A stretch of 64,000 bases of DNA from Anaerolineales bacterium (lineage in GTDB: Bacteria; Chloroflexota; Anaerolineae; Anaerolineales; UBA4823). The stretch is taken from the NCBI GenBank assembly GCA_020060465.1, contig JAGVAD010000001.1:19871-83870 (forward strand), in the 5' to 3' direction. A program made the translations under genes and the position numbers. This document shows, piece by piece, positions 6,188 through 63,030 of the stretch (position 1 is the first letter of the stretch; every line of letters starts with the position of its first letter). Under the pieces are notes generated by a model. That model did no database searches and was not told the origin of the DNA. It saw only the letters and a list, made by a program, of their open reading frames with translations.

Positions 6188-6266
6188 CCATCGCCGCCGA
6201 AGGTACAGGATGTCAGGAAGTATATCAGAATCTGATCTGCTGCGTTGGTTATTCGTAATGCGGGAT

Positions 6267-6306
6267 GTGCTCAAAAGTTGTTGTTAGCGTTCGCTCGGCG
6301 TCGGTT
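6267..6306 (-). repeat. Truncated inverted copy of the dispersed hairpin element (see 26386 and 39045)
   Basis: GTGCTCAAAAGTTGTTGTTAGCGTTCGCTCGGCGTCGGTT matches the reverse complement of 39166-39207 (GTGCTCTAAAGTTGTGGTTACGCTCACCCGGCATCGGTT) with few differences and one indel. Confidence 0.7.
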
Positions 6307-6329
6307 CCCAGGGAAAATCTACCACGGCA

Positions 6330-26327: not shown

Positions 26328-26385
26328 GGCGTTGATTATACTCTGAGATGACGAGCGCCGAGTGCGCGTAGATTGCCCGAGTGCA

Positions 26386-26533
26386 CGCAAAGGTTGTTGC
26401 CCGCTGCGATGGCAGCGACTGGAAGTCGCCGTCTGGAGGCTTACAAAGTCGGCTGCGCCGACTCTCAGCCCGCCCCAAGCGGGCTTCATAACCTGAGGCG
26501 TCGGTTTCCAACCGATGCCGAGCGAACTTTTGA
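26386..26533 (+). repeat. Dispersed hairpin-rich intergenic element, copy 1
   Basis: 26388-26520 aligns without gaps to 39048-39180 (22 differences in 133 bp). Contains AGTCGGC-tgc-GCCGACT and GGCGTCGGTT-tcc-AACCGATGCC. Confidence 0.9.
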
Positions 26534-26645
26534 CCGTACCCGATTGCCTGAGTAGATGGACCGGCTACGAATGGATTGACACAATCCGGCGAATGTGTCA
26601 AGATAGAGGGGCGAATCAGACCCCTCGTTCATCCTTTATCATCTC

Positions 26646-38929: not shown

Positions 38930-39044
38930 AGAGTCTCCTCAGCATTTGCACGGATGATGATCATTCGTGTTCGACTATAGCATATTTTGAAGAATTTCGC
39001 TACAGAATGTCAATAAAAGTTTAATGATGCAGTTATTCAGGATC

Positions 39045-39206
39045 ACTCAAAGGTTGTTACTTGCCGCAATGGCAGCGACTGGAAGTCGCTGCCTGAAGGT
39101 TCACAGAGCTGGCTACGCCGGCCTCCAGCCCGCTTCAAGCGGGCTTTGTAACCTGAGGCGTCGGTTTCCAACCGATGCCGGGTGAGCGTAACCACAACTT
39201 TAGAGC
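39045..39206 (+). repeat. Dispersed hairpin-rich intergenic element, copy 2 (fullest copy)
   Basis: GGCAGCGACT-gga-AGTCGCTGCC (39071-39093), AGCCCGCTT-c-AAGCGGGCT, GGCGTCGGTT-tcc-AACCGATGCC; imperfect terminal inverted repeats ACTCAAAGGTTGTTAC / GTAACCACAACTTTAGAGC. Confidence 0.9.
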
Positions 39207-39321
39207 ACCCCATTTGTTTGGACTACTTGTGCAAATAATCTCAAGCGGCTATAATGGCAAGAACGCGAAAAATATCTGGGAATTGTAGCACACTGCCTGT
39301 ACCATCTTTTTGGAGGAACCA

Positions 39322-61944: not shown

Positions 61945-61997
61945 TTCGATTGTCTCCCTCTTGAGCGTTGGCATTGCCCCGAAGGATGAAAATATCG

Positions 61998-63030
61998 CCA
62001 CCGAGTTCACAGAGTTCACAGAGAGATTATTTTCCTCTCAGACGCAGCATCGGCGAAGATTTCCTTCCATTCTCTCTGGCTCTCTGTGGCTCAAAACCGA
62101 GTTCACCGAGAGACGATTTTCCTCTCAGACGCAGCATCGGCGAAGATTTCCTTCCGTTCTCTCTGGCTCTCTGTGGCTCAAAACCGAGTTCACCGAGAGA
62201 CGATTTTCCTCTCAGACGCAGCACAGGCGAAGATTTCTTTCCACTCTCTCTGGCTCTCTGTGGCTCAAAACCGAGTTCACAGAGGTCACCGAGAGACTGT
62301 TTTCCCTCTCAGACGCAGCATCGGCGAAGATTTCTTTCCATTCTCTCTGGCTCTCTGTGGCTCAAAACCGAGTTCACCGAGAGACGATTTCCTCTCAGAC
62401 GCAGCATCGGCGAAGATTCCCTTCCGTTCTCTCTGTGCTCTCTGTGGCTCAAAACCGAGTTCACAGAGATCACCGAGAGACGATTTTCCTCTCAGATGAA
62501 GCATAGGCGAAGATTTCCTTCCATTCTCTCTGGCTCTCTGTGGCTCAAAACCGAGTTCACCGAGAGACGATTTTCCTCTCAGACGCAGCACACGCAGGGA
62601 TTTCCTTCCATTCTCTCTGGCTCTCTGCGGCTCAAAACCGAGTTCACAGAGGTCACCGAGAGACTGTTTTCCCTCTCAGACGCAGCACACGCAGGGATTT
62701 CCTTCCATTCTCTCTGGCTCTCTGTGCTCTCTGTGGCTCAAAACCGAGTTCACAGAGGTCACCGAGAGACGATTTTCCTCTCAGACGCAGCATCGGCGAA
62801 GATTTCTTTCCATTCTCTCTGTGCTCTCTGTGGCTCAAAACCGAGTTCACCGAGAGACGATTTCCTCTCAGACGCAGCAAACGCGAAGATTTCCTTCCGT
62901 TCTCTCTGGCTCTCTGCGGCTCAAAACCGAGTTCACAGAGTTCACCGAGAGACGATTTCCTCTCAGACGCAGCATAGGCGAAGATTTCTTTCCATTCTCT
63001 CTGGCTCTCTGTGCTCTCTGTGGCTCAAAT
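61998..63030 (+). repeat. Tandem repeat array, 11 units of 86-105 bp
   Basis: CTCAGACGCAGCATCGGCGAAGATTTCCTTCCNTTCTCTCTGGCTCTCTGTGGCTCAAAACCGAGTTCACCGAGAGACGATTTTC repeated; anchors GACGCAGC at 62041, 62128, 62215, 62312, 62398, 62495(var), 62582, 62679, 62784, 62871, 62966. Confidence 0.97.

Follow-up and report, generated by a model that had tools for sequence, protein, structure and literature searches.

A four-hairpin dispersed repeat of an Anaerolineales genome is a transposable element, very probably a MITE, inserted upstream of predicted promoters

The four-hairpin repeat that we followed up in a 64,000-nucleotide stretch of an Anaerolineales genome (contig JAGVAD010000001.1; the whole stretch is called the window below) is a transposable element, as its terminal inverted repeats (TIRs), its target-site duplications and an empty insertion site demonstrate. 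Very probably it is a MITE, a non-coding element with TIRs of about 20 bp and duplications of 7-9 bp, which docks at promoters and is presumably mobilised in trans by a transposase of the ISKra4 group.

The first-pass annotation of the window had described two copies, at 26388-26520 and 39048-39180, that align without gaps over 133 nt and differ by transitions only, and our pairwise alignment reproduced this exactly, with 22 differences, 22 of 22 being transitions. The four consecutive hairpins that it reported are likewise present in both copies. In the 39-kb copy, fold prediction places them on the plus strand at 39071-39093 (P1), 39108-39122 (P2), 39128-39144 (P3) and 39157-39179 (P4), with P1 and P4 alike in inverted orientation. 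Compared with dinucleotide shuffles, the RNA fold of this copy reached -80.7 kcal/mol (z = -5.2) and that of the 26-kb copy -76.9 kcal/mol (z = -4.0), P1 of the latter being missing from its minimum-energy fold. The 162-nt span first assigned to the 39-kb copy contains the hairpin core, but paired ends extend the unit on both sides. Brought into one orientation, the copies have similar inverted ends, GGGnGCRCTCAAAGGTTGTTA on the left and AACAACTTTTnAGTGCACCC on the right, that is, imperfect TIRs of about 20 bp and of the type GGGnGCRCTCAAAGGTTGTT at both element ends. Because these inverted ends are common to the copies, the whole elements in the window are 39039-39210 (copy 1, 172 bp, plus strand) and 26379-26541 (copy 2, 163 bp, plus strand, a full-length copy with a short right-end variant). 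The limits of copy 1, which holds the reported hairpins, come from an alignment of 12 host copies, with the ends set by the family TIRs and by the target duplications of better-kept copies; its left TIR is AGGATCACTCAAAGGTTGTTA (39039-39059, plus strand) and its right TIR, the promoter-facing end, is AACCACAACTTTAGAGCACCC (39190-39210, plus strand). A decayed fragment of a third copy, comprising the right TIR and half of P4, lies on the minus strand at 6262-6312.

The repeat had been proposed to belong to a dispersed structured family, and further copies were indeed found when we searched the host assembly (3.18 Mb in 64 contigs, 83% complete): at a threshold of E<=10 there were 36 matches, of which about 22 are strong, with 12 copies near full length and at least 10 decayed or partial ones among them. 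The covariance-model search suggested in the first-pass annotation gave the same picture as the sequence search. Elements are about 160-178 bp long, too short for a transposase gene, and no match pointed to a phage or plasmid origin. Both full window copies sit between divergent genes, while none of the classifiable copies lies between convergent genes, which is close to expectation since only 13% of the intergenic DNA of the window is convergent. At three loci (L015, L016 and L082) the same TIRs enclose other sequence in place of P1-P2 (AGGCGCAGGAAACCGGCTG / GGAGATGGATGCCGC), forming a sub-family with a different cargo. One insertion site is occupied both in the host (L014) and in the sister species (L109/L132), although it has decayed differently, with P3-P4 retained in one species and P1-P2 in the other; the family therefore appears to be older than the species split.

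Flanking sequences bear the mark of insertion. Recognisable direct repeats of 7-9 bp flank seven of the eight two-ended copies, one pair being exact and the remainder differing by one or two changes; in a permutation test on these eight copies, true pairs of flanks matched better than re-paired ones (1/20,000). The copy at L010 has an exact target duplication, CTAGATGA, copy 2 is bordered by GATTGCCC on the left (26371-26378, plus strand) and GATTGCCT on the right (26542-26549, plus strand), and the 39-kb copy has a weak duplication, CAGTTATT/CATTTGTT. Both full window copies are absent from the genome of the sister species, which has about 86% DNA identity to the host. At the 26.4-kb site the sister has a clean empty site in which GATTGCCTGA, with a single GATTGCC, occurs once, where the host has GATTGCCC, the element and GATTGCCT. 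At the 39-kb site the element is absent as well, and because some 70 nt could not be aligned at that point, we count this site as an absence and not as a clean junction.

The insertions keep a regular position relative to predicted promoters. Of 21 host right ends, a set that includes decayed copies and one locus (L026) that probably lacks a true TIR and is a hairpin doublet, 15 are followed 36-41 nt outward by a -10 hexamer matching at 5 or more of its 6 positions, while each of the other 6-nt bins within 100 nt holds 0-2 right ends (binomial P ~2e-18, with the other bins as reference). In the host, the combined score for -35 and -10 boxes is highest with the -35 box at 16 nt from the right end (z = 5.3). 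Little overall signal was found at the left end, and the insertion is therefore oriented; in the 26-kb copy and at L007 the -10 hexamer lies on the left side instead, 38-39 nt off. For the 26-kb copy this is the TATAAT of the leftward gene, which encodes a protein kinase domain (26335-26340, minus strand); it lies at a distance of 38 nt from the element's left end and is kept at the empty site. Downstream of copy 1, the predicted promoter of an oxidoreductase gene (39227-39255, plus strand) has its -35 box TTGTGC 16 nt after the element, a 17-nt spacer and its -10 box TATAAT at 39250-39255, and the fragment at 6262-6312 ends 37 nt from a TATACT -10 hexamer at 6219-6224 on the minus strand. TTGTGC-17-TATAAT is unchanged in the sister species, which has it without the element, so the promoter predates the insertion at comparable sites. 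Our results show that the elements insert at a near-fixed distance, leaving about 16 nt between the right end and the -35 box of a predicted sigma-70-type promoter downstream.

Elements with the same ends occur outside the host genus. In a search for the TIR across 38 genomes of the family, one genome of another genus (G025) yielded 127 copies of a single-hairpin MITE of about 80 bp with the same TIR. This MITE has 8-bp duplications, perfect in 7 of 22 cases and in none of the re-paired controls, and on either side its promoter score peaks at 15-16 nt. Its 127 copies (among them loci L162, L171, L178, L183 and L211-L230) look like a recent burst. Single-hairpin MITEs with the same TIR were also present in G035. 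A possible link to a transposase comes from two further genomes: in G013 a similar TIR precedes an ISKra4-type ORF, a 142-aa N-terminal fragment that matches the NCBIfam ISKra4 model with E = 1.9e-14 and, at 53.6 bits, stays under the 205-bit cut-off set for the whole protein, and in G037 a matching TIR-type end lies about 46 nt past the C-terminus of an ISKra4 transposase. These IS ends lie at or near contig edges and no full-length autonomous element was recovered. The MITE ends resemble the IS ends without being identical to them, so that mobilisation would be due to a relative of the IS elements seen here. No ISKra4 transposase was detected at E<=0.001 in the host (64 contigs, 83% complete) or in G032, none was found in the sister species, and G031 contains a partial one, near which no TIR of this type was seen. 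Insertion 13-17 bp upstream of sigma-A promoters has been reported for part of the ISKra4 group, as it has for TnGBS and ISLre2; elements with nearly symmetrical repeats insert on either side, and those with asymmetrical repeats in an oriented manner (PMC3942029). The host family (oriented) and the G025 family (either side) fit these two published patterns, and we infer that the transposase belongs to the ISKra4 group.

In the first-pass annotation the all-transition pattern was taken to reflect conservation of an RNA or single-stranded DNA fold through G-U wobble, which would make the repeat a structured non-coding or cis-regulatory RNA whose fold is under selection. Such an RNA would agree with the stable predicted folds, with the lower divergence of stems than of unpaired linkers (8.6% versus 17%; p = 0.07 for variable columns) and with the transition excess across the family, the interior of 11 copies having 50 transition types and 11 transversion types. 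However, selection on one RNA strand predicts that at G-C pairs C-to-T changes, which give G-U, outnumber G-to-A changes, which give A-C, and we counted 11 of the former versus 10 of the latter (p = 1), so that neither strand's pairing is favoured. No Rfam family matched the repeat at its gathering score, the only hits being far below it. Covariation was not above the shuffled controls, with 5 pairs changed on both sides versus 3.8 +/- 1.5, an outcome that the first-pass annotation itself had listed as speaking against its RNA claim. The compensating change that it noted in hairpin 2 is present, but it amounts to a single T-A to C-G pair in one copy. Unpaired DNA has a similar transition excess (transitions to transversions 29:7 in unpaired columns versus 21:4 in stems), by which transition bias as a structural signature is ruled out, and the wobble reading of the pattern was not upheld. 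The empty site, the target duplications and the location of the element upstream, not downstream, of the predicted promoters adjoining it also argue against an RNA, which we consider extremely unlikely. As to the pattern itself, the probability of 22 transitions in 22 differences is 1e-5 to 3e-4 at genome-like ratios and 0.025 at the family pairwise ratio of 710:130. Fourfold sites of host/sister orthologues gave 290:198 transitions to transversions, uncorrected for saturation, and the larger transition share of the family thus indicates some mutation-spectrum effect. An all-transition difference between stable hairpins thus counts as evidence of RNA conservation only when covariation and strand-specific wobble have been tested as well.

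The hairpins raise a different alternative, a REPIN/BIME-type element moved by a RAYT (a Y1 HUH transposase) that acts on single-stranded hairpins. The host has two Y1 transposase loci, and at C29:179553 (L084) a RAYT-type Y1 transposase gene lies inside a REP-like hairpin array (GACGGCCTTTCCAGGCCGTC / GACAGGCTGGAAAGCCTGTC) whose loops, TTTCCA/TGGAAA, are similar to those of the element. P3-P4-like doublets without these TIRs occur in the host as well as in five further genomes sampled from the class, all of which is in keeping with such an origin, and outside the host the exact P4 palindrome recurs almost only in genomes labelled Chloroflexi. We also observed four tandem repeats of about 106 bp, each with a P3-P4-type doublet, in a more distant Chloroflexi genome (L036, JAIOAU010000013.1, 1603-1944), and an array of about 12 repeats with a spacing of 87-106 nt (GCTCTCTGTGGCTCAAAACCGAGTTCACAGAG...) at 61983-63029 of the window. 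However, the hairpins linked to the RAYT have sequences other than those of P1-P4, and TIRs, target duplications and promoter docking are DDE features, not those of RAYT/IS200-type elements. RAYT mobilisation of the full unit is ruled out by the target duplications at its ends, and the REPIN/BIME-type explanation as a whole is very improbable; a RAYT may have been the source of the hairpins, not of the unit's movement, and we suggest that ends of the ISKra4 type captured REP-like palindromes between them. It is also conceivable that, after insertion of the MITE, some copies were retained by the host as an upstream module serving as a transcription block or insulator near promoters. The fixed position upstream of promoters, the decayed copies still located at promoters, the reduced divergence of the stems, which purely passive cargo does not predict, and the placement of the full window copies between divergent genes are consistent with this use. 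Insertion targeting, however, accounts for the positioning, sister species differ in their insertion sites, and many copies are degraded. A role as transcription terminator was rejected, no terminator-like site being present at either window copy, which also counts against a transcription block, and retention by the host seems to us quite unlikely.

Returning to the MITE explanation, we propose that an ISKra4-group (Mutator-like, DDE) transposase would act in trans on the MITE ends and that targeting would occur via recognition of promoter-bound RNA polymerase, a mechanism put forward earlier for TnGBS and for elements of the ISKra4 group. The four hairpins would be REP-like palindromes carried as cargo between the TIRs, for which an RNA function is unnecessary, and the transition-only difference of the two window copies would reflect divergence under a transition-rich mutation spectrum. 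A broader scenario, in which lineage-specific MITEs use a promoter-recognising Mutator-like transposase to deposit a four-hairpin module about 16 bp upstream, some copies being retained for an insulating or tuning effect of the hairpins on the adjacent promoter, is speculative and rather unlikely. Copies inserted in this way mark promoters: in the genome of this uncultured organism, most of the 21 right ends point to a predicted one.

A 2024 review of prokaryotic MITEs mentions neither ISKra4 nor Chloroflexi, the paper on promoter targeting (PMC3942029) does not mention MITEs, and our literature search, which had partial coverage and is hence provisional, returned no paper combining ISKra4, MITE and terminal inverted repeats. 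Provisionally, then, the element is apparently an undescribed variant, a promoter-targeting MITE with four REP-like hairpins. With bacterial MITEs such as NEMIS, Nezha, ERIC and RUP (PMC10969869, PMC3733652) it shares a length in the range of 70-300 bp, TIRs, target duplication, a non-coding and intergenic nature and strong secondary structure, while it differs from them in being promoter-targeted at a fixed spacing and in having four internal hairpins. REP/BIME/REPIN elements with their RAYTs (PMC2817692, PMC3733652) are similar in their GC-rich hairpin doublets and in loop motifs found near a host RAYT; here, however, the hairpins are enclosed by DDE-type TIRs and duplications, and the whole unit of about 170 bp is dispersed. 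ISKra4-group ISs (p-MULT 4, Mutator-like DDE; PMC3942029) resemble the element in a target duplication of about 8 bp and in inserting upstream of sigma-70-type promoters at a fixed spacing, and the IS fragments seen here have TIRs that are similar to those of the element, though not identical. Unlike these ISs, the element has no transposase, its hairpin interior is unrelated to the IS fragments that we saw, and in the host it is the right end that is oriented to the promoter. Promoter-targeted insertion has already been reported for whole ISKra4-group and TnGBS/ISLre2 elements (PMC3942029); as the same targeting rule is found in non-coding MITEs from two genera within one family, the ends alone would seem to be enough for targeting, with no need for the mobilising enzyme to be encoded close by.
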